A DNA stretch of 64,000 nucleotides from positions 1 to 64,000 of the forward strand of contig JAISOJ010000076.1 in assembly GCA_031275735.1 (NCBI GenBank), read 5' to 3'. Both the position numbers and the translations under genes were made by a program. This stretch comes from Dysgonamonadaceae bacterium. Lineage in GTDB: Bacteria; Bacteroidota; Bacteroidia; Bacteroidales; Azobacteroidaceae. Positions 6,248 to 63,439 of this stretch are shown piece after piece. Under the pieces are notes generated by a model. That model was not told where the DNA came from, searched no databases, and was given only the letters and a program-made list of their open reading frames with translations. Position 1 is the first letter of the stretch; each line of letters begins with the position of its first letter.

Positions 6248-7126
6248 TTAGGAAATTCCCTGAGTTGCTACTTCGGCATTAATCTTTTTTATTAATCCTT
6301 GCAAAACATTTCCCGGTCCTAATTCAGTGAAATCGGTGGCGCCTTCAGTTATCATTTTTTGTATCGATTGTGTCCATTTAACGGGGGCGGTCAATTGGGC
6401 TATTAAATTTGTCTTGATGACAGCCGGATCGGTTTCACCGCAAGTACTTACGTTTTGGTAAACAGGGCAAATAGGCGTATTGAAAGAAGTGGAATTAATA
6501 ACATTGGCCAATTTGGTTCTCGCCGCTTCCATCAAAGGAGAATGGAATGCTCCGCCGACATTCAGTTTTAGAGCCCTTTTAGCTCCGGCAGCTAACAATT
6601 CTTCACAAGCTTTATCAATGCCGGAAACTGTTCCGGAAATAACAATTTGTCCCGGACAATTATAGTTGGCAGGAACTACAATATCATCAATGCCTTTACA
6701 TATTTCTTCTACTTTTTCGTCCGGTAGATTCAATATGGCTGCCATAGTACTTGGCGTTTTTTCGCAGGCTTTTTGCATAGCCAAAGCTCGTTTATAAACC
6801 AATTTTAAGCCATCTTCAAACGATAAGACCCCTACAGATACTAAAGCGGAAAATTCTCCTAAGGAATGACCGGCAACCATGTCCGGTTTGAAATCGTTTT
6901 CTAATGTTTTTGCTAAAATAACGGAATGAAGAAAAATAGCCGGTTGTGTTACTTTTGTTTGACGGAGGTCTTCGTCTGTACTTTCAAACATCAAATCAGT
7001 AATGCGAAATCCTAATATTTCATTGGCTTTTTCGAACATTTCTTTTGCGACGATTGATTTTTCATATAAATCTTTTCCCATCCCGACAAATTGAGCTCCC
7101 TGACCGGGAAATACATAAGCTTTCAT
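6248..7126 (-). CDS. fabD: Malonyl-CoA:ACP S-malonyltransferase FabD
   Basis: YVFPGQGAQFVGMGKDLY, VAGHSLGEFSALV (GHSLGE), VGGAFHSPLM. Confidence 0.96.
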   Translation of the reverse strand: MKAYVFPGQGAQFVGMGKDLYEKSIVAKEMFEKANEILGFRITDLMFESTDEDLRQTKVTQPAIFLHSVILAKTLENDFKPDMVAGHSLGEFSALVSVGVLSFEDGLKLVYKRALAMQKACEKTPSTMAAILNLPDEKVEEICKGIDDIVVPANYNCPGQIVISGTVSGIDKACEELLAAGAKRALKLNVGGAFHSPLMEAARTKLANVINSTSFNTPICPVYQNVSTCGETDPAVIKTNLIAQLTAPVKWTQSIQKMITEGATDFTELGPGNVLQGLIKKINAEVATQGIS

Positions 7127-24006: not shown

Positions 24007-25578
24007 TTATGGTATAACTTTATATTCAGAATTAGGCTCCATCATTTTTGCGTTTATCTGCTTTCTCCAATTATGAAGCATTTCACGCAGTTTGTTCACT
24101 ATCTCGGGTTCAGAGGAAACGAGATCGTGTTGCTCTTCCCTGTCATTTTTCAGATTAAACAGTTGAACTGTATTGTTTTCATAATATTCCAATAATTTAT
24201 AATCGCCACAACGCACGGCTCCTCCTGGACTTTGCATGCCATGGTTGCTGTAATGAGGAAAATGCCAGAATATGGCATCCCGATCAATTTTAGTTTCACC
24301 TTTCAACAAAGGTGTAAAACTTATCCCGTCTGATTGCAACTCTGGTTTAGTCTTTATTTTCAACATATCTAAAATAGTTGGGAAAAAGTCGGGTCCTGTG
24401 ACAGGTACATCGCAAACAACCCCTTGCAGTCCTTTGCCCGGCCATTTTACAATCAACGGCACTCTGATGCCTCCTTCGTAAAGCCAGCCTTTACCGCCGC
24501 GTAGCGGCAAGTTGGAAGTAGAAAAAGCTTTATCCAATTTATTATCTTGAATTACTCGATCAGGACTGTAAAAATTAGCAGCCGACATTCCTCCATTGTC
24601 AGAATAGAAAATAACAATAGTATGATCGTCGATGCCCCATTTTTTTAGTTCGTTAAGTACCCTGCCAAAACTTTCATCCATACTTTCAACCATACTCGCA
24701 AATTCTACATTATCCTGATGTTGCTTAATTTTAACAGTACGGTCGGAAAAAATACGGTATCCTTCATGATCTCGGTACGATTTTTCATCAAAAGGCGTAT
24801 CCGGATCACCTTCCAGTACATAAGCATAATTTTGATATACAATCATTTGATCCGATTTTTTTTTATATTTTTCGACTAAGTCAGGGCGTCCTTCAATGGG
24901 ATCGTGTACCGCAAAATGAGACAGATACAAGAAGAATGGTTTGTCTTTATTCTCTTCGATGTATTTCAGCGCTTCTGTAGTCAGGCGATCGGTAAGATAT
25001 TCACTTTCCTGCCCATCTTTTAATCCCTTCAATCCATAAGGTGAAAAATATCCTTTGTTTGGCCAACCTTTATTCCAGCCTGAGGGTACATGCAAATCAA
25101 AACCTTGTCTTGCCGTTGAAGCTGAATCTTCTCCCAAGTGCCATTTTCCGAAAATAGCTGTATGATATCCGTTTTCTTGAAGCGTCGTTGGAATGGTCGG
25201 TTTATTATAAGGTAAATGTTGATTAATCTGTACGTTTTTTAATTTCTGAAATGGGAAATCAAGCCTGCCCGGAAGCCAATCGGTCAAATTAATTGAAGCA
25301 GGATATTTCCCCGTTAAAATACTTGCGCGCGAAGGAGAGCTTACATGACATGCGGCGTAAGCATTAGTAAATCGAACTCCTTCTTTTGCAAAACGGTCGA
25401 TGTTGGGCGTTTCATAAAAACGGCTACCATAACATCCTGTGTCGCTCCAACCCAGATCGTCAACCAGAAAGAAGACGACGTTCATAGGTTTTTCTTCTTT
25501 TGGTTTGCTTTGCGCCTGCCCTGTTCCTGTACCTATTAATGCAACGGCTGCTGTTGATACAAATAACTTTGGATTCAT
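24007..25578 (-). CDS. Sulfatase (Ser-type)
   Basis: NVVFFLVDDLGWSDTGCYGS; SSPSRASILTGKYPA signature; secretion signal. Confidence 0.93.
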   Translation of the reverse strand: MNPKLFVSTAAVALIGTGTGQAQSKPKEEKPMNVVFFLVDDLGWSDTGCYGSRFYETPNIDRFAKEGVRFTNAYAACHVSSPSRASILTGKYPASINLTDWLPGRLDFPFQKLKNVQINQHLPYNKPTIPTTLQENGYHTAIFGKWHLGEDSASTARQGFDLHVPSGWNKGWPNKGYFSPYGLKGLKDGQESEYLTDRLTTEALKYIEENKDKPFFLYLSHFAVHDPIEGRPDLVEKYKKKSDQMIVYQNYAYVLEGDPDTPFDEKSYRDHEGYRIFSDRTVKIKQHQDNVEFASMVESMDESFGRVLNELKKWGIDDHTIVIFYSDNGGMSAANFYSPDRVIQDNKLDKAFSTSNLPLRGGKGWLYEGGIRVPLIVKWPGKGLQGVVCDVPVTGPDFFPTILDMLKIKTKPELQSDGISFTPLLKGETKIDRDAIFWHFPHYSNHGMQSPGGAVRCGDYKLLEYYENNTVQLFNLKNDREEQHDLVSSEPEIVNKLREMLHNWRKQINAKMMEPNSEYKVIP

Positions 25579-28134: not shown

Positions 28135-29844
28135 TTAATTATTTGTGTTTATGTTTCTTGTTCGGTTTAACCGAATACTATTGGCTTCACTTTTTGGATT
28201 TGTCTTGACCTGATCGATTATTTTCACTAATTCCGCCGCCTTATCCGGCATTTTGTCATACAGGTTAACACTTTCTGATACGTCGTTATTCAAGTTAAAT
28301 AAACGAGGAACTTTATCGCCCTGAATATCGTCATAATACGTCTCCGGCCATCTGCCGGACTTAGCCGGTTCAATGTATTTCCATCCATCTTGAAGCGCAA
28401 TTAAAGCGCCGCTGCTACCGCTTGCAGGGATTACAGTTTTTCTAACCTGGGGAGCTTTGGCGTCGAGCATATTAGAAAGAAAGCTGTAACTGTCTTCGCC
28501 TTCGTTTTCTTTTAACTGATCGCCCATTAAATCGGCGAAAGTTGCAAGGATATCTACGGAACAAATCAGATTGTTATTTACTGTTTCAGATTTTACTTTG
28601 CCTGGCCAATGTACAATGAAAGGCACTATTAAGCCGCCTTCCAACGGGTCTTGTTTGAATCCGCGAAAATCGCCCGAAGAGCGGTGATTGTATGTCAACC
28701 ATCCGTTTTTCCATATAACATTCCCTTTTTCATTAATATATTCCGGTTTAAAGTTTCCAAAATATTCCTGGTATTCCTCATAGTTTTCACCTTTATATCC
28801 ATCTCTGTATCGATTAATCCATAGAACGGGATCGCCTGGACGCGGTCCGTTATCCGAAGTAAAAATCAGCAAAGTGTTTTCATATGCATGATTCGCTTTT
28901 AATGCTTTTATTATCTCGTTTATGCTCCAATCAAGCTCTACAACTATATCTCCCCTTAATCCTGCCTGACTTTTTCCTTTGGTAAACGTCGGCAAACAAG
29001 GTCGATGAATGGCGCTTGTTGGCAAATAAAGGAAAAATGGCTGTTTTTCATTATTGGCGAAATGCTTATTAATTACTTCTACCGCTTTCCGTGTAATCAC
29101 TTGATTTACGGTTTTCATATCCCAATCAGGAGCCCGTGTTACATTTTCTGCAATAAAATCGTATGGTTTTTGATATTCAGAAGGAGGCTGCAATACTTGA
29201 TCATTTTCGATATATACCCAAGGCTGCATATTGTTTGAACCTGCCATTCCGAAGAAGTAGTCAAATCCTCGCTCCACAGGACCGCCTTTTACAGGTTTTG
29301 AAAAATCAATATAAGCTTGCAGATTATTTTTGGCCGAACTGAAAACTTTTTTTTCAGAATCAGCAGGCGCTTTATCATTCAATGCCCAATCAAGCCCAAG
29401 ATGCCATTTCCCAACACAAGCAGTGTAATAACCATGGCTTTTGAGCAAGGATGCAATTGTTGTTCGTTCAGGTTCAATTAATGGTTTATCATAACTGTTC
29501 AAGACTCCATATTCCAAACGTGTCCGCCAAGAATAACGTCCGGTTAAAATACCATATCGCGAAGGCGAGCTAAGTGAAGAACAGACATAAGCATTAGTAA
29601 ACCGCATTCCTTCAGATGCCATTTGATCCAATACCGGAGTCTGAATCTTAGTAGCTCCGTAACAACTTAAATCTCCATATCCTAAATCATCTGCAAGAAT
29701 GAGGACAATATTAGGAACTTGTTTTTCTTTCTTTGAAAAATCCTCTGTTCCTCTCAACGCCATTGTTGGTACTCCCAACGCGCCCAGAGTACATACACTT
29801 GGCAATAAAACGGAAGATATTTTTTTAATTGTTTTTTGTTCCAT
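28135..29844 (-). CDS. Arylsulfatase (Ser-type)
   Basis: NIVLILADDLGYGDLSCYGATKIQTP; SSLSSPSRYGILTGRYSWR. Confidence 0.93.
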   Translation of the reverse strand: MEQKTIKKISSVLLPSVCTLGALGVPTMALRGTEDFSKKEKQVPNIVLILADDLGYGDLSCYGATKIQTPVLDQMASEGMRFTNAYVCSSLSSPSRYGILTGRYSWRTRLEYGVLNSYDKPLIEPERTTIASLLKSHGYYTACVGKWHLGLDWALNDKAPADSEKKVFSSAKNNLQAYIDFSKPVKGGPVERGFDYFFGMAGSNNMQPWVYIENDQVLQPPSEYQKPYDFIAENVTRAPDWDMKTVNQVITRKAVEVINKHFANNEKQPFFLYLPTSAIHRPCLPTFTKGKSQAGLRGDIVVELDWSINEIIKALKANHAYENTLLIFTSDNGPRPGDPVLWINRYRDGYKGENYEEYQEYFGNFKPEYINEKGNVIWKNGWLTYNHRSSGDFRGFKQDPLEGGLIVPFIVHWPGKVKSETVNNNLICSVDILATFADLMGDQLKENEGEDSYSFLSNMLDAKAPQVRKTVIPASGSSGALIALQDGWKYIEPAKSGRWPETYYDDIQGDKVPRLFNLNNDVSESVNLYDKMPDKAAELVKIIDQVKTNPKSEANSIRLNRTRNINTNN

Positions 29845-43940: not shown

Positions 43941-45830
43941 TTACCATCCCTGATTTTGCTTAAAGTCTTCGTACTGATTAACCAGCGATCTTTTGAACGG
44001 AAACCAGTAATGTTTCCCTTCTTCAAATTGTCCTTCAAAAAGTAACGTTTCGTTACAAACAGAGTGTTCCTGATTGAATTGATGTTCATAACGCCGTTTA
44101 TACTGCGGCAAATGAGATAAATACCAGCGGCGAAGATCAACAAAACGTTGTCCTTCAAAAGCCAGTTCCACGCTGCGCTCATTACGTATGCGATCTCTGA
44201 AAATTTCCTTACTGGCATAGTATTGCGGTCGCACGTCGGGTAGCGACTCATTTCCGTAAACTTGCTCGGCGGCTGTCAGATCTTCACTTACAGGGAGTTT
44301 CACTCTGCGATGAAGAATATTAATGGCTTCCAATGCAGTCAAACCCTGAGCATCAAAATCAGTAGGTGATACGGTAGGACCATAAGCCTCGTTAACAGCT
44401 TCAGCGAAGTTCAGATACATTTCGGCAAGGCGAATATAGGGACAATTAAATCGGAAACTATTATATTCCGCGCCGCCGGCGCCGCCTTCTTTATTATTGA
44501 CTTTGAATGGGATATATTTGCGAATCAAATAACCTGTCTTGGACTGAGGCGAAGCGGCGCTTCCTCTGTCGAGGCCAACAGCAGCGCTACCCCCAACATT
44601 TGTGTAGAGTTGTACATAACTTTCAGCTAAAGGGATACCAACTGGATTATCTACCCATTTTACTCCATCAACTAAGATGGTTTTCCAAAGTCTTGGATCA
44701 CGTTTAGCCCAAGGGATCAGCGGATTGTAATCTCCTGAAGGAGCATCGGCAATAGCGTAACCTGTTGCAGTTTCGTAAAGATCAACAAAATTTGCCGTAG
44801 GTGAAGTTACCACGGAGTTACCGCCAAAGCGTCCACTGTTGTGGAGACGACCTATACCAAAATTGAGTACTTGTGAACTTCCAATGGCTGTTCCGGGTTT
44901 AATCTTTGCAAAAATAGTTTCTGCTGTATAGACGGCTTTTGTTGTCGCAATTGGGCGGCAATCGGCAAACTGGTAAGCGTAGTCGCTCCAGGGGACAAGG
45001 CTGTAAATACCTTTATTTGCTAATTTTATTACTTCGTAAGCAGCTTGGGCAGCCTGTTTGCATAACTCGGTATCATATATGGCATTTTCTGTTTCTAATT
45101 TGGAGGTTAACGGACTTGCCGCATAGAGTAATGCTCTTGATTTAAGAGCAAGCGCTGCTCCTTTGGTTACACGTCCCATGTGGATGGATGGATTCTCCCA
45201 TGCCTCGGGGAGTAATTCGGCTGCTTCCGTCAGATCATTTACTATTTTCATCAATGTTTCCTTAAAGCTTAGGCGCGGAAATTTCATATCTGTTTCCGGA
45301 CTAAAGGCATCAGTGACATAAGGCAATCCGCCCCAATACTTGGCGATTTCGAAGTGATTCCATGCGCGAAAAAATAGCATCTGTCCTTTGAGTCTGTTAG
45401 ATTCTTCCGGTGTAGCATTAGTCAACATATCCAGATTAGCCAATCCGAAATTGCAAGTGCGGATATTAGCCCACCCTTGATCCCACAACCCAAAATGGGC
45501 AGATTGATTGGTTGTTACAAATGGATTCTGATCTAAATTGGAATGTATCCACATATAATTTCCACGGGGAATATTATATCCCGCAGGAAAATCACGATTG
45601 CAGTCCACATCGTCAGCAAAATCAAATGATGAAGTATAAGCCTGTACGTGATAAACGATCAAGCCGTCGCCGTAAAGCACATCAAGGTAGCCTTGAAAAT
45701 TACGATAAGAGCTGAATACTTGCGCGTCGTCAACATCCGAGGCAGGAGTTTTTTCAAGATAACTTTCACAACCGGCTACCGAAGATGACAATGCAATGAT
45801 TGATAGAATTTTTATTATTTTCATGATCAT
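43941..45830 (-). CDS. SusD/RagB-family lipoprotein
   Basis: SSVAGCESYLEKTPASDVDDAQVFSSY; RLAEMYLNFAEAVNEAYG; RNERSVELAFEGQRFVDLRRW. Confidence 0.95.
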   Translation of the reverse strand: MIMKIIKILSIIALSSSVAGCESYLEKTPASDVDDAQVFSSYRNFQGYLDVLYGDGLIVYHVQAYTSSFDFADDVDCNRDFPAGYNIPRGNYMWIHSNLDQNPFVTTNQSAHFGLWDQGWANIRTCNFGLANLDMLTNATPEESNRLKGQMLFFRAWNHFEIAKYWGGLPYVTDAFSPETDMKFPRLSFKETLMKIVNDLTEAAELLPEAWENPSIHMGRVTKGAALALKSRALLYAASPLTSKLETENAIYDTELCKQAAQAAYEVIKLANKGIYSLVPWSDYAYQFADCRPIATTKAVYTAETIFAKIKPGTAIGSSQVLNFGIGRLHNSGRFGGNSVVTSPTANFVDLYETATGYAIADAPSGDYNPLIPWAKRDPRLWKTILVDGVKWVDNPVGIPLAESYVQLYTNVGGSAAVGLDRGSAASPQSKTGYLIRKYIPFKVNNKEGGAGGAEYNSFRFNCPYIRLAEMYLNFAEAVNEAYGPTVSPTDFDAQGLTALEAINILHRRVKLPVSEDLTAAEQVYGNESLPDVRPQYYASKEIFRDRIRNERSVELAFEGQRFVDLRRWYLSHLPQYKRRYEHQFNQEHSVCNETLLFEGQFEEGKHYWFPFKRSLVNQYEDFKQNQGW

Positions 45831-45839
45831 TTTGTTTTA

Positions 45840-48800
45840 CTAAAATTCAATATTAACACCTATATTAAACCTTTTGGTCATAGGATATTTTTGTATATTG
45901 TCGTTGGCGCGTGTTCCTCCTGTTTCCCTGTCTTCATTCAGATACGAGAAGAGCCAGAGGTCATTTCCATTTAAATATACACGCAGACCATTGATGCCGA
46001 GTTTCTTTATATAAGTACCGCCGAAACGGTAAGCAATTTCAATATTTTTGAGTCTCCACATAGTTCCATCAACCATATTGTAAGTTCCTGTATTATTCAC
46101 ATCGCCGCCAAGATTGTAAACAGGCGCGCGGTAATTTCCGCCGGGGTTGGCAGCAGGTAGCCAAAGGTCGCTTACAATACTTTTGTCTACAACCGAATAG
46201 TAATGAGGGCCCGTGAACAAATATTCGCTCTGTTGCAAAGTAATTCCCGTACTACCGTAGAACTGTATCATGAAACTGAGGTTTTTCCATTCGACGCCTG
46301 CTGTAAGGTTCATTGTATGGAGCGGATGATTGGAGTAACCGTAAGGAACCAAGTCATTTTCGTCAACTACTCCGTCGCCGTTGTAATCCACAAGTTGCAA
46401 CATACCTGGAATGAAATTATTGGGTTCTTTCGTCCCTTTAACTCCGGTATACATCTCATCCCAGTTTGTTATGGGACCTTTATCAATGTAGGCGTGTTGC
46501 TGCCCGATGGGATAGCCTGCTAACTTTTGGTATGCAGGGATAAGTTCAGGATCCTCTATGTAATCAATTCTGTCCTGAGAATTGGAATACATGACCGCAA
46601 CATAATATTTAAAATCCGAACCTATATTTGAGTTCCAACGAGCCTCAACTTCCCATCCATTTGCAGAAGTACGCCCTAAATTGGAGGGAACCGGATCTGC
46701 GCCAAACCAGTCGGGGATGTTACGCATTTCGGCTGGAAGGAAGATATCATAACGATATTCCCAGTAATAATCAATGCTTGCAGTAAGATGGTTTTTCAGG
46801 AAACTCATTTCGGCAGCTAAATCATTTTTGACGGAGGTTTCCCAACGCGCTTCAGGATTGCCTATAACGGATATTTTGTGTCCCGGATAGAACGAATTAC
46901 TCTGAATGGGCGTACCCAGCCATGCGCTGTTGTTAATACTACTCCATTGAGTCACGTAGAGCCAACGAGGAATACCATTATCACTTCCGACTTTGCCCCA
47001 TGAATAACGAAGTTTGAAAAGATTGACATAATCGTTAAGTTTTGATTTTTTGAAGAAAAGCTCTTCACTTACCATCCAGCCAAAAGCAACTGCTGGAAAG
47101 AAGCCGAACTTTTTACCCTTACCAAATTTTTCAGAGCCATTGTATCCGGCATTTCCTTCTAACAGATAACATCCGGCATAATCATAAGTAACACGACCCG
47201 CCCACTCTTCGCGGTATGTTGGAAATGTCTGTCCCAAGGAATTATCAGTGCGTTTGAATACGCCCGTCGCTCCAATTTTGTGATTGCCGAATACACGGGA
47301 ATAATTGAGATTGAGTTGATACATCAAATTTTTATAAAGCTGCACTGTTCCGTTGGAGGCGTTTTTAATCGTTTCGGTGGTTACCTGAGGCAAAACAGGG
47401 ACGTACTCGAAACCTGTCTTGTCGCTTACAGGGATATTCCATGTGGTAACTCCTGTTCGCCAATCAATGTATTTGGTAACCGGTCTGTTGGCGCCAACAT
47501 TAGGTCCGTTGCTGATGTAATAATTGCGGAAATTGACCAACCCCTTTATCGAAAGCCCTTTAGCTATAAAATCAAGTTTTTGATTAAGAGTAAAATTAGT
47601 ATTCATATCAGTGCGCACTTCCTTTACAATCCCGCTAAAATTGAAGTATTCTACAGGGTTGTACATATTGTAGCCTGCAGCATTGTTAGCGAATGTCCCG
47701 TCGGAATAACGCACCGGATACTGGTCGGGTCCTTTGCCATAAACCCCGAGCCAAAGATAAGCAGGTGTAGCATTGGTAGTATTTTCAATGCCTTGCGCCC
47801 CATCAAGGTTCACTCCAAAAGTAGTTGTGGTTGTCGGTTGGAAATCCAAATTGAGACGGAAATTATAACGTGAATAATCGTTTTTGGGAACATATCCCTG
47901 ACCGAAATCCTGTCCTTTAAGAATGTCTCCATCGTAAGTATAGGATAACGAAGCATAATATTTGACAAATTTAGTAGCGCCTTGCAAACCCATATTATAG
48001 TGTTGCGACCATGACCATTGATGGAGCATTTCATCCTGCCAATCAACATCAGGATAGATTTCCGGATCAGTTTGGTCGCGATATCGGCGAAGCACATCCA
48101 CAGGAGTTATGTAAGATGACCAGTGGCTGGCCGGCGAAGGTCCAAGTTGATTTTCAATTGCTTGATTACGAAGTAATAAGGCATTATAAGAATTGAGAAA
48201 TTGCGGAATCTTTGAGAGGGTTTTAGCTGTTACGCTGGCAGATACGGAAAGCACGGGCTTGCCCTCTTTACCGCGCTTAGTGGTGACAAGTATAACGCCG
48301 TTACCACCCCTTACACCAAATACTGCGGTTGCAGAAGCATCTTTGAGGACAGATATATTTTCAACTTCATTGATGTCGATATCGTTCATGTTGCGTTCTA
48401 CGCCATCAACTAAAATCAACGGATCCGAACCGTTCCATGTCGATTTGCTTCGGATAATGATCTCCGCTGCGTCTGAGCCGGGTTTACCTGAATAATTCAG
48501 GGTAGTAAGGCCGGGAACAAGACCTGTAAGTGCGTTAGAAATGTTTGTAACGCCTCCGGTACGCATCAATTCTTCTGATTTTACCAGCGAAATAGCGCCT
48601 ACTACGCTTTGTTTCCTCTGTGTGCCGTAACCAACTACTATTACCTCGTCGAGGTTTGCGGCGCTTTCAGACATAGTGATATTCAAGTTTTTTGAGTCGC
48701 CAACTACAATTTCCTGAGTAACGTATCCTATGAAGAAGAATTGCAATACAGATTCTTTATCAAGTACCGTTATAGTAAATTTTCCATCAATATCAGTCAC

Positions 48801-49016
48801 GACACCCCGAGTAGTTCCTTTGATGACAATGCTTACCCCTGTCAATGGACCCATTTTGTCGACAACTGTTCCGGTAACAACAATTCCCTGTTGCTGGGAT
48901 TCATTATGACTCAAACTGTTGGATTCGGAAAAGTCCGCTGCAATTACCCTGGCAAGCACGAAAAAAAGAAAAAAGATTGTCAGTTTTACAACTTTACTTA
49001 TTTTATACAATCTCAT
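45840..49016 (-). CDS. SusC/RagA-family TonB-linked outer-membrane protein
   Basis: VTGTVVDKMGPLTGVSIVIKGTTRGVVTDIDGKF (CarboxypepD_reg-like); DEVIVVGYGTQRK; VLKDASATAVFGVRGGNGVILVTTKRG. Confidence 0.97.
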   Translation of the reverse strand: MRLYKISKVVKLTIFFLFFVLARVIAADFSESNSLSHNESQQQGIVVTGTVVDKMGPLTGVSIVIKGTTRGVVTDIDGKFTITVLDKESVLQFFFIGYVTQEIVVGDSKNLNITMSESAANLDEVIVVGYGTQRKQSVVGAISLVKSEELMRTGGVTNISNALTGLVPGLTTLNYSGKPGSDAAEIIIRSKSTWNGSDPLILVDGVERNMNDIDINEVENISVLKDASATAVFGVRGGNGVILVTTKRGKEGKPVLSVSASVTAKTLSKIPQFLNSYNALLLRNQAIENQLGPSPASHWSSYITPVDVLRRYRDQTDPEIYPDVDWQDEMLHQWSWSQHYNMGLQGATKFVKYYASLSYTYDGDILKGQDFGQGYVPKNDYSRYNFRLNLDFQPTTTTTFGVNLDGAQGIENTTNATPAYLWLGVYGKGPDQYPVRYSDGTFANNAAGYNMYNPVEYFNFSGIVKEVRTDMNTNFTLNQKLDFIAKGLSIKGLVNFRNYYISNGPNVGANRPVTKYIDWRTGVTTWNIPVSDKTGFEYVPVLPQVTTETIKNASNGTVQLYKNLMYQLNLNYSRVFGNHKIGATGVFKRTDNSLGQTFPTYREEWAGRVTYDYAGCYLLEGNAGYNGSEKFGKGKKFGFFPAVAFGWMVSEELFFKKSKLNDYVNLFKLRYSWGKVGSDNGIPRWLYVTQWSSINNSAWLGTPIQSNSFYPGHKISVIGNPEARWETSVKNDLAAEMSFLKNHLTASIDYYWEYRYDIFLPAEMRNIPDWFGADPVPSNLGRTSANGWEVEARWNSNIGSDFKYYVAVMYSNSQDRIDYIEDPELIPAYQKLAGYPIGQQHAYIDKGPITNWDEMYTGVKGTKEPNNFIPGMLQLVDYNGDGVVDENDLVPYGYSNHPLHTMNLTAGVEWKNLSFMIQFYGSTGITLQQSEYLFTGPHYYSVVDKSIVSDLWLPAANPGGNYRAPVYNLGGDVNNTGTYNMVDGTMWRLKNIEIAYRFGGTYIKKLGINGLRVYLNGNDLWLFSYLNEDRETGGTRANDNIQKYPMTKRFNIGVNIEF

Positions 49017-52156: not shown

Positions 52157-53068
52157 TTAGAATAATAGTCCTTTCGAAATTTTCCAACGAAATTCTACTA
52201 ACTTGGCTCCTTTTTTGTAGCTTCCCGAAAGGATATATCCGACGAATAAAATGCCCGTCGCTCCCCATTTGAATAGTTCCCGCAAGCAACTTTTAAGATA
52301 CTCTACGGAAGAAATGTTTTTCGCCCGAATCTTTTCGCTGTAGCCAATTGCTAAAGCTTGTTTCGTGAAAAACTCACGGGTTAAACGGCTGTCAGGGACC
52401 CAGTGTTCCACTACTAAATTAGGAATATAATAAACCGGAATACCTGCTCCTTTGGTTCGCAAAAAGAAATCCTTTTCTTCGGCGCCTTCTAAATTCCCGC
52501 CTTTCCGTCCCAATTGTACATTGAATAAACCCAACCGATCGAAAAGTTTCTTCTCGATTATCATATTAGCGCCAATCGGGTAGCTACGCCCGGTAAATAA
52601 TTTTACGCTATCTCCTAAATCCAATAAGGAAACAATCGACAGCAAATATTTGGACATCCACTGTGGTTGTCCGCTTTCCCAACAAGGAAGAATCTTCCCG
52701 CCGCCGGCATGAAATTCAGGATGTTTTTCGATAAAATTTTTGAAGTTCCGCGTATAATCGGGAAAGGCAAAGGCATCGTCGTCCAAAAAAACCAGATACT
52801 CTCCCGATGCTTCATTTATTCCCCTGTTTCGTGCATAAGACAAGCCTTGATTGTTTTCGATGAAGTACTTAACGGTTAAATGGGAATATTTATTCATAAA
52901 ATTGCGGATGAGGGAATCTGTATTGTCCGTAGATTTATTATTGACCAAAACCAACTCAAAATCCAAATCTTCCTGTTTCGTCAAATGATCTAAACATTTT
53001 CCTAACACCTTTTCCCTATTGTAGGTACAAACGATAAGCGACAAATTTTTGTTTTTCTTTTGAAGCAT
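52157..53068 (-). CDS. Glycosyltransferase family 2
   Basis: Probable start MLQKKNKNLSLIVCTYNREKVLGKCLDHL; SYARNRGINEASGEYLVFLDDDA. Confidence 0.9.
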   Translation of the reverse strand: MLQKKNKNLSLIVCTYNREKVLGKCLDHLTKQEDLDFELVLVNNKSTDNTDSLIRNFMNKYSHLTVKYFIENNQGLSYARNRGINEASGEYLVFLDDDAFAFPDYTRNFKNFIEKHPEFHAGGGKILPCWESGQPQWMSKYLLSIVSLLDLGDSVKLFTGRSYPIGANMIIEKKLFDRLGLFNVQLGRKGGNLEGAEEKDFFLRTKGAGIPVYYIPNLVVEHWVPDSRLTREFFTKQALAIGYSEKIRAKNISSVEYLKSCLRELFKWGATGILFVGYILSGSYKKGAKLVEFRWKISKGLLF

Positions 53069-53162
53069 ATTTTTATATAAATATTTCACAAATTTATAGG
53101 ATAAAATCGAAAATCCGTTTTTCTCGGCTAATTTTTTTTGAGGCGCTATACGCCGCGCGGTA

Positions 53163-53170
53163 TAATTTTG
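53163..53170 (+). promoter_or_regulatory. Putative -7 element (TAATTTTG) for the CXXX peptide operon
   Basis: Matches TAnnTTTG; TTTG at 53137-53140 could be the -33 element. Confidence 0.4.
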
Positions 53171-53217
53171 TGCATTGTTTTCAATAATAACATCCCAAAT
53201 CAACAATAAAGATCTCG

Positions 53218-53532
53218 TTGCCTAATATTCGCAAAAATTGTACCGGCACTTGTACAAGCGGTTGTCAATACACTTGCGGTGATGCCTGTAGCAGCTCTTG
53301 CGTTACCTCTTGCAAAAACCTCTGCCAAAATACTTGCACCGGCGCTTGCGGGAATAGTTGCGGCAGTTCTTGCAGTTTCAGTTGCAGCAGCACTTGTAAA
53401 GGAACTTGTGTCAATGCCTGCACCAGCGCATGTGGCGGCGGCTGCACCGGCTCCTGCAGCGGAGTTTGTGGCGGTTGCGGTGGTTGTAGTTATACGTGCA
53501 GCGCCGCTTGCCGGACGGGGGCTTACATGTAA
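53218..53532 (+). CDS. CXXX-repeat precursor peptide (104 aa, 24 Cys)
   Basis: MPNIRKN-CTGT-CTSG-CQYT-CGDA-CSSS-CVTS-CKNL-CQNT-CTGA...: 19 consecutive CXXX units, then CGG-CGG-CSYT-CSAA-CRTGAYM*; TTG start inferred. Confidence 0.85.
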   Translation: MPNIRKNCTGTCTSGCQYTCGDACSSSCVTSCKNLCQNTCTGACGNSCGSSCSFSCSSTCKGTCVNACTSACGGGCTGSCSGVCGGCGGCSYTCSAACRTGAYM

Positions 53533-53542
53533 AACGGTAAGT

Positions 53543-54712
53543 ATGGCGAATAGTACATTCAAAAATATCACCTTCATTGTGACCAAAGACTGCCAACTGG
53601 CTTGCAAATATTGCTATCTGGTAGGAAAAAATACCAAAGAAAAAATGTCGTGGGCGGTTGCCCGGCAAGCCATTGATTACATTATCGGTCATTCGGAAAT
53701 ATTCAATGAAGAAGCTGTGGTTTTTGATTTTATCGGGGGCGAACCTTTTTTGGAAATAGATTTGATTGATCAAATTTGCGACTACATCAAACGTAGCCTC
53801 TTCGAAAAGGAACACCCCTGGTTTAATTCTTACCGTTTCAGTTTTTCCACCAACGGGATCAATTACCATGAAAAGACTGTTCAGAATTTTGTCCAAAAAA
53901 ACCGCACACATTTAAGCGTGGGTATTACGATCGATGGAACGCGTGCTAAACACAACTTGAACCGGGTTTACAAAAGCGGAAAAGGCTCTTATGCGGATGT
54001 GGTAAAAAATATCCCTTTATGGTTGAAACAATTTCCCGACGGAGCCACGAAAGTAACTATCAGCAGTCCTGATATTCCGTATATCAAAGAAAGCGTGATT
54101 CATCTTTATTCTTTGGAAATTAAGGAAGTAAACATCAATTGTGTATTTGAAGACGTATGGGAAGAAAAGGACGACAGCCTTTTTGAAGAGCAGTTAATCC
54201 TTCTTGCCGACGAAATTATCGACAGGGAATATTATAAGGAATATAAATGCTCGTTCTTTTCCGAAAATATAGGAAAACCGCTGGATCGCAGGCTGCAAAA
54301 CCAGAATTGGTGCGGTTCGGGCATGATGCTGGCGATAGACGCTGCAGGGAATTTTTATCCTTGTACTCGTTTCGCTCAATATTCCCTCCGGGAAAAAGAA
54401 GCGCGGATTGTGGGCAACATCAGGGAAGGAATTAATGCGAACCGCTTGCGCCCGTTTCTCACGCTCGACCGTTGTACACAAAGTCCTGTAGAATGTATCG
54501 ACTGCGAAGTAGCCGGCGGATGCGCCTGGTGTCAGGGTGAAAATTACGATGCAGCCGGTACGCCGACAATTTATCAACGAGCAACTGCGATCTGCAAAAT
54601 GCACAAGGCAAGAGTCAGAGCGAACAATTATTACTGGAACAAGCTTTTCCGTAAAATAGAAAAGGAAGAATGGAAAGCAAATAAAAAGGTTGAAAAATGT
54701 TGCAATATCTGA
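53543..54712 (+). CDS. Radical SAM/SPASM peptide maturase, CXXX-repeat target family
   Basis: CQLACKYCYLVGK (CxxxCxxC); FIGGEPFLE; SPASM-region cysteines (WCGSG, CTRF, CTQSPVECIDCEVAGGCAWCQG); downstream of CXXX peptide. Track start 53279 is too far upstream. Confidence 0.9.
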   Translation: MANSTFKNITFIVTKDCQLACKYCYLVGKNTKEKMSWAVARQAIDYIIGHSEIFNEEAVVFDFIGGEPFLEIDLIDQICDYIKRSLFEKEHPWFNSYRFSFSTNGINYHEKTVQNFVQKNRTHLSVGITIDGTRAKHNLNRVYKSGKGSYADVVKNIPLWLKQFPDGATKVTISSPDIPYIKESVIHLYSLEIKEVNINCVFEDVWEEKDDSLFEEQLILLADEIIDREYYKEYKCSFFSENIGKPLDRRLQNQNWCGSGMMLAIDAAGNFYPCTRFAQYSLREKEARIVGNIREGINANRLRPFLTLDRCTQSPVECIDCEVAGGCAWCQGENYDAAGTPTIYQRATAICKMHKARVRANNYYWNKLFRKIEKEEWKANKKVEKCCNI

Positions 54713-55653
54713 TTATCTTATTGGATGATACATCCGTATCTTATTGTCATTACGAAAACACGAAGACAGAGCGCCGCCTGATTTCATTGGACGATTTGAA
54801 AACGGGGATTTTTTTTGCTATGAAGCAAAATCTGATGATTCAGTTTGTTTATCCTGACTATGAATTACCGGAAGAATACGGGCAAGTTATTCAATCCATC
54901 GATAATCACAAGATAGCGCCCTGTTCCATTCTCTCGGACGAAACAAACGTTTGCGTTACCTGCGAATGGGAGAAACTTCCCCAAGAAGCAGATACTTTTT
55001 CAAAAGAATTTGTATGGGTCTTACGGATAAGCAAAAACAATTTGTTTTCCAACTACGAAAAATTGTCGCTCCGGATAAAGGCGATCAAACGGCTCAACCT
55101 TGTCATTACTGATGTAGATACTTTCAGGGAAGAAGATTTCAGCATCTATAAAAAGGTATTATCGCATTTTCAAACGGTTCTCAAAGAGCAATACAGTCAG
55201 GATTTATATCCGCAGTTCAATCTGTTGTCCGACCGGATTTTGTTGGACAGTATGAATAACTGTAATGCCGGCGTAGAAAACATTACGTTGGCCCCTAACG
55301 GCCGGTTTTATATCTGCCCGGCTTTTTATCAGGAAAACGAGATGGATTCCGTCGGTAATTTAACCATCGGACCGGATATTACAAACAGGGTACTTTACCG
55401 GCTCGACCATGCTCCGCTCTGCCGGATATGCGATGCTTATCAATGCAAACGATGCGTCTGGCTCAGTCGGAAAACAACCTTGGAAGTCAATACGCCTTCG
55501 CACGAACAGTGTGTTGTTGCGCATCTGGAAAGAAATGCCGGTCGGGAACTGCTATTGGAATTGCAACAGTCGGAAAACCGTTTTTCGGGGAAAAGCATCG
55601 AAGAGATTGATTATCTGGATCCGTTTGATATTAGAAAAAGAGAAAGAGAGTAA
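54697..55653 (+). CDS. CXXX-repeat peptide maturase partner (SPASM-like, no N-terminal CxxxCxxC)
   Basis: NITLAPNGRFYICPAFYQENEMDSVGNL ... CRICDAYQCKRCVWLSRKTTLEVNTPSHEQC; overlaps the rSAM gene. Confidence 0.82.
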   Translation: MLQYLIILLDDTSVSYCHYENTKTERRLISLDDLKTGIFFAMKQNLMIQFVYPDYELPEEYGQVIQSIDNHKIAPCSILSDETNVCVTCEWEKLPQEADTFSKEFVWVLRISKNNLFSNYEKLSLRIKAIKRLNLVITDVDTFREEDFSIYKKVLSHFQTVLKEQYSQDLYPQFNLLSDRILLDSMNNCNAGVENITLAPNGRFYICPAFYQENEMDSVGNLTIGPDITNRVLYRLDHAPLCRICDAYQCKRCVWLSRKTTLEVNTPSHEQCVVAHLERNAGRELLLELQQSENRFSGKSIEEIDYLDPFDIRKRERE

Positions 55654-55692
55654 GCATCATATTCGATATTTATAAAATTTATTCAGAGATTT

Positions 55693-55950
55693 ATGAAAGT
55701 TGGAGAAGTTACAGAAGAAGAAAAAAAAGAGATTTTAAGTCTTTTTGAACGAAAAAACGGTTTGGTAGAATTGGCGAAAATCATCAAAAGCGACGACGCC
55801 CTTTATGATAAAATGGTCAGGGATATGGGTGCTACCGCTACCCAATTTCAGGCATGGTGGGACCGGATGGTAAAAAAATATCAGTGGGAAAGCAAAGAAG
55901 GCGGTAATTGGGAAATCAATTTCGAGACAAATGAAATTATATTAGTCTAA
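55693..55950 (+). CDS. CXXX-repeat peptide modification system small protein (85 aa)
   Basis: Position and size in operon; MKVGEVTEEEKKEILSLFERKNGLVELAKII...WWDRMVKKYQW. Confidence 0.78.
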   Translation: MKVGEVTEEEKKEILSLFERKNGLVELAKIIKSDDALYDKMVRDMGATATQFQAWWDRMVKKYQWESKEGGNWEINFETNEIILV

Positions 55951-56066: not shown

Positions 56067-56276
56067 GTAGTTGTTGTAACCTGTCGCCACTTTCAACGGA
56101 TTCGAGTATGTCGATTGTTTTCCGGTACTTTGCAGCGATTTGCAGAGGGAAACAGTATTTTTTGTCCAATCTTTTAGGGTGCTGTTCAAGGACAGGCTTG
56201 TTTTTTTATTCTTAGGCGTTTGTAAATCTCGAACTTTTCACGTAAGTTTGTACAAAAAAATAAAGATTCATTGAAA

Positions 56277-58793
56277 ATGGGAAAAAATACGCCGGATTCC
56301 GGAATTTTGAGGCAATTTGCGCCTCATATACTTGTTGTACTTATTTTTATTGCACTCGCTTTGCTCTATTTTTATCCTCAATTAGAAGGTAAAACCTTAC
56401 AACAGTCCGATATTTCTCAATGGCGGGGAATGGTGCAGGAATTGGATGAATTTGCACAAAATAATCCGGGAGTCAAAGCGGTATGGTCAGGTTCTATGTT
56501 CTCTGGAATGCCTTCCTACCATTTCGGCATAATGGGTTATTCACCTAATTATCTGGGTTATATTCAACAGGGATTATCGTTGTCCAGTCCCGGAAGTATG
56601 GGGCCGGTATTTACCGGGCTACTTTGCGCATATATCCTTTTTTTCTTGTTAACCGGATATGTCCGGATATCTTTATTTGGCTCCATTGCTTATGCATTTT
56701 CTTCTTATAACCTGATCATTCTTGTAGCAGGGCATGTCACAAAAGCTTGGGCAATAGCATTTATCCCTTTAGTTTTAGCGGGTTTTTTAGTGATCACCCA
56801 GAAAAAATACCTAATGGGAGGCGCCCTTTTTGCATTAGGCTTGGGTTTGGAATTAATCAGCGGCCATATTCAGATTACCTATTATTTAGCCATTTTTTTC
56901 CTTATACTTTTTGTCGGATATGCCGTCCATTGCCTTCGCAAAAAAGAAATGAAAACCCTGTTTCATGTTTCTTTGACTTTATTTATCGCTTTGATCTTTG
57001 CCGTATTACCTCGCTTAGCCGGTTTATATGCCGATTTTGAAATGAGCAAGGAAAGCATGAGAGGGCCTTCCGAACTTACATCTTCCTCCCATGATAATTC
57101 CACCGCATCGGAAGGTTTGGATATTGACTACGCATTTACTTGGAGCTACGGCAAAGGCGAAACGTTAAGTTTGATGATTCCTAACATAAGGGGCGGCGCT
57201 TCAGGAGGATTTTTAGGTCAAAATTCAAATTTATATAAAGAATTTAAACTCAATGACGTAAGAACCGGAAAAGAAATCCAGAGCTATACTTATTGGGGCG
57301 ACCAACCTTTTACATCAGGACCGGTTTATTTTGGAGCAGGTATCTGCTTCCTTTTTATATTAGGCATGTTTGTAATAAAAAATAAAATCAAATGGTGGCT
57401 ATTAGGAGCAACTCTATTCTTTATTTTATTATCTTGGGGAACAAATTTAGCGTGGTTTAACAATTTTTTATTCTACCATCTTCCGATGTATAATAAATTC
57501 AGGACTCCTTCCATGACCTTAGTAATCCCTTCTATCATCTTTCCTCTTGTGAGTGTGTGGGGATTAAAAACCTTGTTCCATCATCGAAATGATGTAGAAA
57601 AAGAGCGATTAAAAAAACAACTCCTTTTTTCATTAGGAATCACCGGTATAACATGCTTGGTTTTATGGTTAATGGCTGGTGTGTTCTTTAATTTCGAGTC
57701 CGGAAACGACAGCCAGTTTCTATCGGAAGTCCCCGATTGGTATTACAACGCCTTATTAGCAGATAGGGAATCCCTGTTAAAGTCAGATGCTTTACGCTCT
57801 TTCATTTTCATCCTTTTGTTTGCCGCATCTATTTTCTTTTTCATGAATAAGAGTAAAAAACAGTTCTATCGTTCTTTAACAATCTTAGTTGTATTGGTTT
57901 TAATTGATTTATGGACGGTAGATAAGCGTTATTTAAATGAATCCTCTTTTGAAAAAAAGAAATCGGAAAAAGTTTTTGAACCTACCATAGCCGACAATAT
58001 CATTTTGAAAGATAAATCTCCTTCATACAGGGTATTAAATATTAGCGCCAATACTTTTAACGAAACGGCGACTTCTTATTTTCATAAATCAATCGGCGGC
58101 TATCATGCCGCTAAGCTGAGACGATACCAAGAATTAATCGATCGCCGGATAAATGGGGAAATTCAATTCATTGGACAATCGTTTCAAAATGCAAACAGCA
58201 TAGACGATGTTATTGGCGTCTTTCAAAATACGCCTACCATCAATATGTTGAATGCTAAATACATCATTTATAATCCCAATCAAGAACCCATCGTTAATCC
58301 GAATGCCGGAGGAAATGCTTGGTTTATCCAAGAAGTGATGTTAGTAGATAATGCCGATGAAGAATTGGATGCCTTAAATACAATCGACCCTCGAAAAACG
58401 GCCGTGGTGGATAAAAAATTTGCCGATCAAATAGAAAAACAATCATTTACGCCCGATTCCGCCGCTTTTATCGAATTGTTGCAATATCAACCGATTTATC
58501 TGAAATACAGCTCTAAAACAAATTCGGAACAATTAGCCGTATTTTCCGAAATCTATTACTCAAATGGATGGAAAGCGTTTATCGACGGTAAACCGGCCGA
58601 ACATTTCCGCACCGATTGGGTATTGAGAGCCATGAACGTTCCTGCAGGCGAGCATATCATTGAATTTCGATTCGAACCGGATACTTTTAACACTTTATCC
58701 AACATAGGGTCTATGGCTTCCTTATTGTTAATTATCGGTTTTGCCGGAACATTGATCTATTCCGGTCGGAATGCCTGGCGAAAAGCTAATTGA
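56277..58793 (+). CDS. YfhO-family polytopic membrane protein (putative glycosyltransferase)
   Basis: LLYFYPQLEGKTLQQSDISQWRGM; many TM helices; C-terminal YYSNGWKAFIDGKPAEHFRTDWVLRAMNVPAGEHIIEFRFEP. Confidence 0.9.
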   Translation: MGKNTPDSGILRQFAPHILVVLIFIALALLYFYPQLEGKTLQQSDISQWRGMVQELDEFAQNNPGVKAVWSGSMFSGMPSYHFGIMGYSPNYLGYIQQGLSLSSPGSMGPVFTGLLCAYILFFLLTGYVRISLFGSIAYAFSSYNLIILVAGHVTKAWAIAFIPLVLAGFLVITQKKYLMGGALFALGLGLELISGHIQITYYLAIFFLILFVGYAVHCLRKKEMKTLFHVSLTLFIALIFAVLPRLAGLYADFEMSKESMRGPSELTSSSHDNSTASEGLDIDYAFTWSYGKGETLSLMIPNIRGGASGGFLGQNSNLYKEFKLNDVRTGKEIQSYTYWGDQPFTSGPVYFGAGICFLFILGMFVIKNKIKWWLLGATLFFILLSWGTNLAWFNNFLFYHLPMYNKFRTPSMTLVIPSIIFPLVSVWGLKTLFHHRNDVEKERLKKQLLFSLGITGITCLVLWLMAGVFFNFESGNDSQFLSEVPDWYYNALLADRESLLKSDALRSFIFILLFAASIFFFMNKSKKQFYRSLTILVVLVLIDLWTVDKRYLNESSFEKKKSEKVFEPTIADNIILKDKSPSYRVLNISANTFNETATSYFHKSIGGYHAAKLRRYQELIDRRINGEIQFIGQSFQNANSIDDVIGVFQNTPTINMLNAKYIIYNPNQEPIVNPNAGGNAWFIQEVMLVDNADEELDALNTIDPRKTAVVDKKFADQIEKQSFTPDSAAFIELLQYQPIYLKYSSKTNSEQLAVFSEIYYSNGWKAFIDGKPAEHFRTDWVLRAMNVPAGEHIIEFRFEPDTFNTLSNIGSMASLLLIIGFAGTLIYSGRNAWRKAN

Positions 58794-61071: not shown

Positions 61072-62016
61072 GTGATGCAAAAGTACATATTATTATTGGC
61101 GGTTTCTTTGGTATGGATAGGACTTTATGCTCAATCCGAATTTGCACCGGTAGGTTCGGAATGGTATTATACACATACTATTGCCGGTTGTTGTCCTGAA
61201 CATTGTTTTAATCATATTATTTCCGAAAAAGATACTATTGTTGGAGGAAATAGCTGTCGTGTAATAAAACAATATCCTGACAACTCAAACACCGCAAACG
61301 AAAAATATATTATCAAACAAGAGCAAGGTAAAGTCTATTATTATTATCAAGATCAATTCAATTTATTATTCGATTTTGATGCGGGAGTAAATGATACCAT
61401 TGAATTTACATTTATGTATAAAAAGTATGATGCTTTCCCTTCACCCTTGTATAAAGATACAATATTGTCGGTAAGATTTAAAGTTGAAAACATTACAACA
61501 AACGCTCAAAATCTGAAAACATTTAGAACAAAAATTTTAGATGAAGATGCACCTAAGTTTCATGGCGTTTATTATGCTCCTTACACATATACATATACTG
61601 AAAAAATCGGATGGCATAGCGAATTTATACCGATGCTTGATAATGCGGGCCATCCAGACGCGGATATTTTCCGATGGTTAAGATGTTATTCCGACGCCGA
61701 TTTTTCTTTTGTGTCGGATGAGTGGGCTTCCATGTCCCTGCCCTGCAATCATTCCATTGCTACTGGTTTTAATGCGCTTCCAAAAGAAGAAAGCAGCATA
61801 GTTTATCCCAATCCTTTTAAAGATAATGTGTTTGTATTTACAAACGATGGAAAGAATGTTGAAGTAATAGATGTTTCGGGCAAAACGGTTCATTATTCGA
61901 AATTGTCGGAAGGAATGAATATGCTGTCAACAAATCAGCTACTCAAAGGATTGTTTTTTGTAAAAATCCAAAATAAAAATAACAGCACTCAAATTTTTAA
62001 AATAATCAAGTTATGA
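61072..62016 (+). CDS. Secreted protein with T9SS type A sorting domain
   Basis: Signal peptide; C-terminal VYPNPFKDNVFVFTNDGKNVEVIDVSGKTVHYSKLSEGMNMLSTNQLLKGLFFVKIQNKNNSTQIFKIIKL. Confidence 0.83.
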   Translation: MMQKYILLLAVSLVWIGLYAQSEFAPVGSEWYYTHTIAGCCPEHCFNHIISEKDTIVGGNSCRVIKQYPDNSNTANEKYIIKQEQGKVYYYYQDQFNLLFDFDAGVNDTIEFTFMYKKYDAFPSPLYKDTILSVRFKVENITTNAQNLKTFRTKILDEDAPKFHGVYYAPYTYTYTEKIGWHSEFIPMLDNAGHPDADIFRWLRCYSDADFSFVSDEWASMSLPCNHSIATGFNALPKEESSIVYPNPFKDNVFVFTNDGKNVEVIDVSGKTVHYSKLSEGMNMLSTNQLLKGLFFVKIQNKNNSTQIFKIIKL

Positions 62017-63439
62017 AAACATTATATTGCATAATCATATTCAATCTATGCTTAATATCAGGTTTTTCACAAGAATACGGATATTTATTGGTTAATATTA
62101 CTGACGCCGATAAAACAGTGTCTAATAAAAAAGGACAGCTTATTAATAACGATAAAAAGTTAGATAATGCATTTAAAGATTTTAGAGTCTTTTCCTATAA
62201 ATATGCTTATCCTAAAGCTTTGCATCTATAGAATGTAATTGTGATGTTAAAGAACTCGCAGAATTCTTGAAAAAAAATTATTCGACAACTTTTTCGGATA
62301 TTGAATATACTCAAGATTTAGGTTATCCCGAATATAATCCATCAGATGCTATATGGGATCAAACAAATCCTGATGGTACTCCTGTGTTATGGCATTTAAA
62401 TAAAATAGAGGCAGATGAAGCTTGGGATATTACTAAAGGGTCATCGAATATTACTGTTGCAATAATTGACCAAGGATTTGATATTTCTCATCCTGATTTA
62501 GTGAACAAAATAACTTCAACAGTAGATTCTCGTACAGGCAATCCTTTTGGATATACTACAGAATATCATGGTACATTTGTAGCAAGTTGTGCCGGAGCAG
62601 AAACAGACGGAGGCGGGCAATTAGCTTCAGTTGGATTTAACACAATGTTAAGTTTTTATGATTACAATATTTCAGCCGCAGATATTGCTTATTATGCTTC
62701 TTTTGATGAAGGAGCAGACGTGATTAGTTATTCCTGGGGTGGGCTAACATCAGCAACTATACGAGAAAAACTTTTAGTGCAGGAAGTATTAGATAATGGT
62801 ACGGTTATTGTTCGATCGGCAGGTAATAAACAAAGTGATTCTGATAATAATAGATTTCCTTTTGCATATCAAGTGGACAATCGAATAATTATTGTTAGCG
62901 CTACAGATAAAAATGATAATCATACAAATCCTACCGGTGGAACTACCTATGCAAATTATCCTCAAGTATCTGTTTGTTCTCCTGGATATAGTATAATGGG
63001 AGCAATTCGATATAATAGCGGTAGCGTTACTAATCCATATATGATAAGGAGTGGAACTTCCTACGCTACGCCAATCGTTGCCGGAGTGTGTGCATTACTT
63101 AAAAGCATTAATAAAAATTTAACTCCTGCGGAAATAAAAAATATTATTCAAACTACTGTAGACCCTGTTGCGGATGCATATTTATATCCCGGTACAATTG
63201 GAACAGGTCGCGTTAATGCATATAACGCTGTACAAGCAGCATGTGCAACAACTTCATCATCGATCAACTTCACCAATCAAACTGTAAACACCAATACAAC
63301 AGTTGTTTCCTGTGGCGACATCAATGTCCAAAATGTAACTGTTACCAACAATGCCAAATTAACATTGGATGCTGTCGGCACCACTACGATTGCCGGAGAC
63401 TTCTCAATACTATTAGGTGCACAATTGGAAGTAGAATGA
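62013..63439 (+). pseudogene. S8 (subtilisin-like) peptidase interrupted by a frameshift near 62218
   Basis: Signal-peptide ORF 62013..62231 and catalytic ORF 62267..63439 (AIIDQGFDISHPDL; YHGTFVASCAG; SGTSYATPIVAGVCALL); the alternative frame across the gap reads KAxASIECNCDVKELAEFLKKNYS. Confidence 0.8.

Follow-up and report, generated by a model that had tools for sequence, protein, structure and literature searches.

The window analysed here is a 64,000-nucleotide stretch, positions 1 to 64,000 of contig JAISOJ010000076.1, from a 2.43-Mb metagenome-assembled genome (76% complete) of a Dysgonamonadaceae bacterium. Four genes of a CXXX-repeat peptide modification system are located on its plus strand, with small overlaps or gaps between them (Table 1). 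The first is a precursor frame, for which the residue count agrees with the original prediction of 24 cysteines and 19 consecutive CXXX units. Cysteines are present at every fourth residue from 8 to 84 (20 cysteines, 19 intervals), followed by cysteines 87, 90, 94 and 98. The residue four positions after each repeat cysteine is the next cysteine, and the X3 position is occupied only by T, S, A, G, L or V. The carboxy-terminus, AACRTGAYM, matches those of precursors from the related loci L011, L012 and L014; a tail AACR-x-GA[FY]M is common to the window precursor, L012 and L014, and in part to L011. The frame is bounded at its 5' side by a stop at 53188. No ATG is found ahead of the repeats, and the TTG at 53218, which lies in a poor start context, is the sole possible start. 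The frame is followed in the same direction, with positions and motifs as predicted, by a radical SAM/SPASM enzyme, a SPASM protein without the CxxxCxxC motif and an 85-residue protein.

Table 1. Features of the locus and its surroundings, in window coordinates.
Feature	Position	Strand	Details
fabD	6248..7126	-	
Family-2 glycosyltransferase, divergent	52157..53206	-	PF00535; likely real start ATG at 53068
Dispersed MITE-like repeat	53079..53181	.	imperfect terminal inverted repeats 53079-53098 / 53161-53180
Bacteroidales-type promoter-like site TTTG-N22-TAATTTTG	53137..53170	+	inside the dispersed repeat; consensus match alone
CXXX-repeat precursor frame	53218..53532	+	104 aa, 24 Cys, TTG start, leaderless
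Radical SAM/SPASM peptide maturase, TIGR04115	53543..54712	+	389 aa, ATG start; 626 bits, cut-off 350
TIGR04119 partner, SPASM protein without CxxxCxxC	54697..55653	+	318 aa; 226.2 bits, cut-off 150
TIGR04116 CXXX-repeat modification system protein	55693..55950	+	85 aa; 93.5 bits, cut-off 50
YfhO-like membrane protein, 3' neighbour	56271..58793	+	genus core gene, 36/41 genomes

Three of the four proteins score above the cut-offs of their curated families, so the set is not a chance assembly, and its predicted membership in the CXXX-repeat radical SAM systems was borne out by this profile check. The cluster is of a type already catalogued in NCBIfam (TIGR04114, TIGR04115, TIGR04116 and TIGR04119), with the same gene set in the same order. 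The fourth model, TIGR04114 for the repeats, gives 19.2 bits (E 0.0012) with the window precursor, 0.8 bit short of its cut-off of 20. With TIGR04117 (Syntroph_Cxxx target proteins) the score is 15.8 bits against a cut-off of 50, and the repeat part of the model alone is aligned; the CXXX repeats are thus shared, while the amino-terminus of the model is left unmatched by the window precursor. A defence function was considered and dropped, as PADLOC yields generic viperin (radical SAM) matches alone.

For the radical SAM gene, the ATG at 53543 was preferred as start over a mechanical GTG start at 53279. The CxxxCxxC motif of the enzyme is C17-x3-C21-x2-C24 (nucleotides 53591–53614), a cysteine-rich SPASM region is also present, and identity to the enzymes of insect-gut relatives is 74–78%. 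The TIGR04119 partner contains a seven-cysteine SPASM pattern, of which all seven cysteines are invariant. Its AlphaFold model (pLDDT 88.6) is best matched in the PDB by CteB (5why, E 1e-10, TMq 0.63) and is that of a SPASM protein on a predicted degenerate radical-SAM-like fold. Given this fold, the retained SPASM cysteines, the missing CxxxCxxC motif and a fusion of the partner to the radical SAM enzyme in locus L008, the partner is most likely an inactive scaffold or an electron-relay protein. The TIGR04116 protein is modelled as a beta-alpha-alpha-beta-beta fold (pLDDT 93) and the window copy has no deviations across 31 near-invariant sites. The fold search against the PDB gave zero matches at E ≤ 0.001, and both an RRE and a Tat-chaperone fold were rejected on this basis. 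From its position beside tatA in the relatives, our guess would be a leader-binding or proofreading factor.

The second-best family of the radical SAM enzyme is the PapB ranthipeptide model NF047865 (204.3 bits, under the cut-off of 340), while the SCIFF model TIGR03974 gives 112.6 bits and does not reach its cut-off of 425. The nearest solved structure by sequence is CteB (5wgg/5why, E 9e-24), which makes CteB the closest structure to the enzyme in sequence and to the TIGR04119 model in fold, although the enzyme is far under the SCIFF equivalog cut-off and the precursor is of a different type. PapB joins cysteine to aspartate or glutamate in CX3D/E motifs (PMC9413430), and CteB installs Cys-Thr thioethers (PMC10352776). 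Since the radical SAM enzyme is nearest to these two thioether makers, we infer thioether chemistry for the CXXX systems. The likeness to PapB would lie in many identical thioethers on one chain, the difference in the CX3D/E motif, which is absent from the window precursor. Over 2287 CXXX units, each of the positions X1 to X3 is acidic in about 5–7%, X2 is glycine-rich and X3 is serine, threonine or glycine in 71%, which resembles the Cys-Thr link of CteB more than the Asp/Glu acceptor of PapB. To our knowledge, SCIFF systems have no Tat component.

A single scan across 85,462 species genomes (one genome per species) supplied the related loci, 80 of the Bacteroidales type. A CXXX precursor is located near the TIGR04115 gene in 78 of them, and together they contain 141 repeat-bearing open reading frames. 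The conserved gene order is (precursor)n, TIGR04115, TIGR04119, (precursor)n, TIGR04116, TatA, TatC. Several similar precursors in tandem are frequent; in L044, L028, L081 and L077, one set of maturases serves up to eight distinct precursors, which flank the radical SAM gene on either side. Precursors of L018, L069, L075, L022 and L035 contain an extra non-repeat domain, either between the Tat signal and the repeats or inside the repeats, for a total of up to about 420 residues. In L008 (1441–3606) the fused enzyme and partner form a single protein of 721 residues, and ahead of the fusion gene lie genes for the ATPase of an ABC transporter and for a subtilase-like protein, possibly a Tat-free export arrangement of a CXXX system. 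CXXX systems are also present in the culturable gut bacteria Bacteroides salyersiae, B. congonensis and Xylanibacter rarus.

Near the amino-terminus, 136 of the 141 repeat frames (from 78 loci) have the Tat motif RR-x-[FLV][FLI], mostly as SRREFF, SRRDFF or SRRQFF, compared with 7 of 855 unrelated frames of the same loci; the signals were identified by this motif and not by a trained predictor. Of the five precursor frames without the motif, at least three can seemingly be put down to a frame error, to degeneration of the copy or to chance, and the 141 frames include no second clear leaderless precursor. A lipobox follows the Tat signal in 38 precursors and an AxA-type site is present in many others. 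At positions +2 to +8 of the lipobox, 34 of the 38 have at least two acidic residues, which resembles the K-(D/E)2 export signal of Bacteroidetes surface lipoproteins (PMC5080379). The Bacteroidales precursors align to most of TIGR04117, including its Tat-like amino-terminus (profile positions 13–54); because the curated model spans this part, its seed proteins probably had a Tat-like amino-terminus too. The Tat leader of the relatives is conserved beyond the needs of Tat, so that it probably doubles as the docking site of the maturase.

TatC is encoded within 45 of the 80 operons, always on the same strand and at a median of +2.65 kb from the radical SAM gene; among the 59 loci with at least 3.5 kb of 3' sequence it is present in 37. 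A TatA motif is found in 48 of the 80 loci. The corresponding cluster proteins are above the cut-off of TIGR01411 (tatAE) and below that of TIGR00945 (tatC), the latter with a partial query. In the genomes checked, mostly those of loci without an operon TatC, 34 of 36 encode TatC. Co-occurrence with TatC was set aside as stand-alone evidence, being weak when 53 of 58 good Bacteroidales genomes have TatC; the linkage within operons is the strong evidence. Because Tat signals are near-universal and tatA and tatC are linked in these operons, Tat appears to be the export route of the CXXX peptides, often by way of a translocase of their own. The original prediction had seen neither a transporter nor a leader peptidase gene nearby and had left export and maturation open. 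The question is, judged from sequence, largely answered at the family level by Tat together with signal peptidase I or II, and not by an ABC transporter or a leader peptidase. In the literature, of which our coverage was partial, we found no paper that joins Tat and radical SAM-modified peptides, none that reports an experimentally characterised product of the CXXX-repeat families and none that names them. We know of no radical SAM-modified RiPP for which Tat is the route.

The window system had been described as complete, which the comparison does not support; this copy looks incomplete. The precursors of the relatives begin with a Tat signal and their operons often end in tatA-tatC, whereas the window copy has neither, which sets it apart together with its repeat score slightly under the cut-off. 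In none of the frames upstream of the repeats is there a Tat signal, an SRR-x-FF sequence with hydrophobic region being absent, and the lipobox is missing along with the Tat signal and the ATG. No correctly placed Tat motif was found elsewhere in the 64-kb window. A detached or alternative leader was also sought in the rest of the genome; the Tat-leader profile gave nothing significant there (best E 0.088), and found its targets in the genomes G038 and G043 at 1e-18 and 1e-17. No tatA is present 3' of the operon, where the YfhO gene is located instead. In the close relative G037 and in G010, tatA-tatC diverges from the fabD orthologue, and in G034 tatC is at the same place; beside fabD of the window, tatA-tatC is absent.

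Searches of the window genome, 76% complete, gave no match to TatC (PF00902) or TatA (PF02416). In the genus, tatA and tatC are jointly absent from 13 of 41 genomes (the window genome and 12 others), among which are three 99%-complete ones of 1.0, 1.2 and 2.5 Mb. As the genes are missing from such nearly complete genomes too, Tat has been lost in the genus, repeatedly and partly together with genome reduction. TIGR04115 is found in only three of the 41 genomes, those of the window, of Dysgonamonadaceae Hs463_bin30 (G026) and of Cf509_bin64 (G038), the last two recognised as these bins by precursor sequences and TatC coordinates in common; the bin names suggest that the latter two come from termite or cockroach guts.

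In a tree of the radical SAM enzymes, the window copy is nested in a clade of 11 rows, mostly of insect-gut lineages (support 100/98), where it is grouped with L011, L012 and L014, with weak support (86/66). The precursors of these three loci are Tat lipoproteins with a carboxy-terminal tail resembling that of the window, so the Tat signal would most simply be ancestral and lost in the window copy. The window maturase genes contain no stops and no disabling lesions, and pN/pS is about 0.2 (for the radical SAM gene against its relatives, pN is 0.15–0.16 and pS is saturated). The radical SAM enzyme has nine changes at 214 near-invariant sites, the third-highest number of the 80 loci (median 2), and an end branch of 0.59 (median 0.2), which fits relaxed constraint as a hint and not as proof. 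Its missing amino-terminal W-x-x-G was dropped as a sign of damage, this motif also being absent in 9 of 78 relatives.

The dispersed repeat is located between the glycosyltransferase and the precursor and ends 37 bp before the TTG at 53218. Its arms are 80% complementary. Pieces of it recur in the window genome (contig C109, 35–49 bp at 88–97% identity) and often across the genus genomes; these matching pieces are short, about 20–50 bp. The outer end of the repeat reads AAACAATGCACAAAAT..., and inverted pairs about 285 bp apart are present in G024 (G024:C172:4981-5265). A MITE is one candidate identity for the repeat, a mobile promoter cassette another. The promoter-like site inside it lies 48 bp upstream of the TTG; the promoter pattern occurs 13 times in the window, where 5.0 occurrences would be expected, and the N22 spacing is on the long side for a Bacteroidales-type promoter.

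The glycosyltransferase setting pointed out in the original prediction is real and looks incidental, since no glycosyltransferase is conserved in the CXXX operons of the relatives. In G037, the nearest relative by the core neighbour gene (YfhO, 69%), the YfhO gene lies directly beside glycosyltransferases without a CXXX operon in between. From this junction, the operon would be a patchy insert in the window lineage or has been lost in its relatives. Elsewhere in the window, a radical SAM/SPASM protein adjoins two sulfatases (22727–23902, 24007–25578 and 28135–29844, all on the minus strand) and is likely an anaerobic sulfatase maturase. A SusD-type gene (43941–45830) and an adjacent SusC-like protein (45840–49016) also belong to this sulfatase region. 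About 6 kb 3' of the operon, a subtilase (Peptidase_S8) adjoins a type IX secretion sorting-domain protein (62267–63439 and 61072–62016, both on the plus strand).

Directly observed are the family identity of the window genes, the Tat signals and tatA-tatC linkage in the relatives, and the fact that the assembled part of the window genome contains neither. Our preferred reading, to which we give a probability of roughly 0.6, is that the window contains a genuine member of the CXXX-repeat family, in which the precursor leader disappeared as Tat was lost from the lineage. At the family level, the radical SAM enzyme, the TIGR04119 partner and the 85-residue protein would act in the cytoplasm, where the evenly spaced cysteines would be oxidatively modified, probably into short thioether rings. 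The precursor would keep its Tat signal during modification, and the signal would also serve as the leader. Tat would then export the rigid, folded product, with roughly half of the operons supplying their own TatA-TatC for this step. Signal peptidase I or II would cleave the product, after which it may be released or retained as an outer-membrane lipoprotein, probably exposed at the surface. Tat carries folded proteins (PMC10924467). With a ladder of intramolecular thioethers already in place in the cytoplasm, the chain would be too stiff to pass through Sec; this would account for the use of Tat and for the lack of both a leader peptidase and an ABC exporter. The window precursor would have lost its start codon, lipobox and Tat signal beside the dispersed repeat, in a genome that is apparently without Tat. 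Because both the leader and, apparently, Tat have been lost, this copy probably no longer yields an exported product. Some observations do not fit a dead copy well: the maturases are intact, the 19 perfect repeats are undecayed, which is odd for a dead system, and the promoter-like site is in place. The genome, moreover, is 76% complete, and the assembly could have missed Tat genes or a further precursor. The intact maturases suggest a recent loss or, alternatively, another precursor encoded in the unassembled part.

The same observations may be read as a functional, Tat-independent variant, an explanation that we regard as unlikely next to a recently orphaned copy truncated at its 5' end, and as better than an assembly error. 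The precursor would have shed a signal made useless by the loss of Tat and would be translated from the TTG at 53218 through the promoter in the repeat; the maturases would modify the repeat without a leader, and the product would remain cytoplasmic, for instance for storage or for the buffering of metals or redox state. Maturases under purifying selection and free of disabling lesions, 24 cysteines in register, the promoter-like site and the concerted absence of signal and translocase all agree with this. It is opposed by the lack of an ATG ahead of the repeats and the poor start context, by a leader conserved past what Tat requires and probably needed for docking, by the failure to find another clear leaderless precursor among the 141 frames, and by the near-invariant changes and long end branch of the radical SAM enzyme.

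More doubtful still is that the true precursor has a Tat leader and that the short-read assembly joined a wrong 5' flank to it via the dispersed repeat or the repeat array. The junction is indeed beside both, which are typical trouble spots, and similar precursors in tandem are common in the relatives; however, the matching pieces of the dispersed repeat are shorter than false joins usually need, the full leader would have to sit on another contig and none is found in the 76% of the genome available, and the absence of the Tat genes is consistent with a real loss. That the frame is mere low-complexity sequence and no RiPP precursor, with the target of the radical SAM enzyme elsewhere, is highly improbable: the precursor score is narrowly under the curated cut-off, but the synteny in 78 of 80 loci, which also removes the earlier worry about a spurious frame, and the shared tail contradict it.

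Up to now, CXXX-repeat systems consisted of curated models, and no product, export route or location was found for them in the literature that we covered. A far-reaching and rather speculative proposal is that they are the first radical SAM-modified RiPPs to leave the cytoplasm through dedicated Tat translocases and to be displayed at the surface, with the Tat signal as maturase leader, and that the window lineage is a Tat-free offshoot that keeps the same poly-crosslinked cysteine ladder inside the cell. The linkage to tatA-tatC and the near-universal Tat signals lead to a testable model, in which the cysteine ladder would be crosslinked and folded in the cytoplasm, moved whole by Tat and often placed on the surface as a lipoprotein. 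The window would be a case in which loss of Tat goes together with loss of the precursor leader, and may help to tell the requirements of the maturases from those of export.
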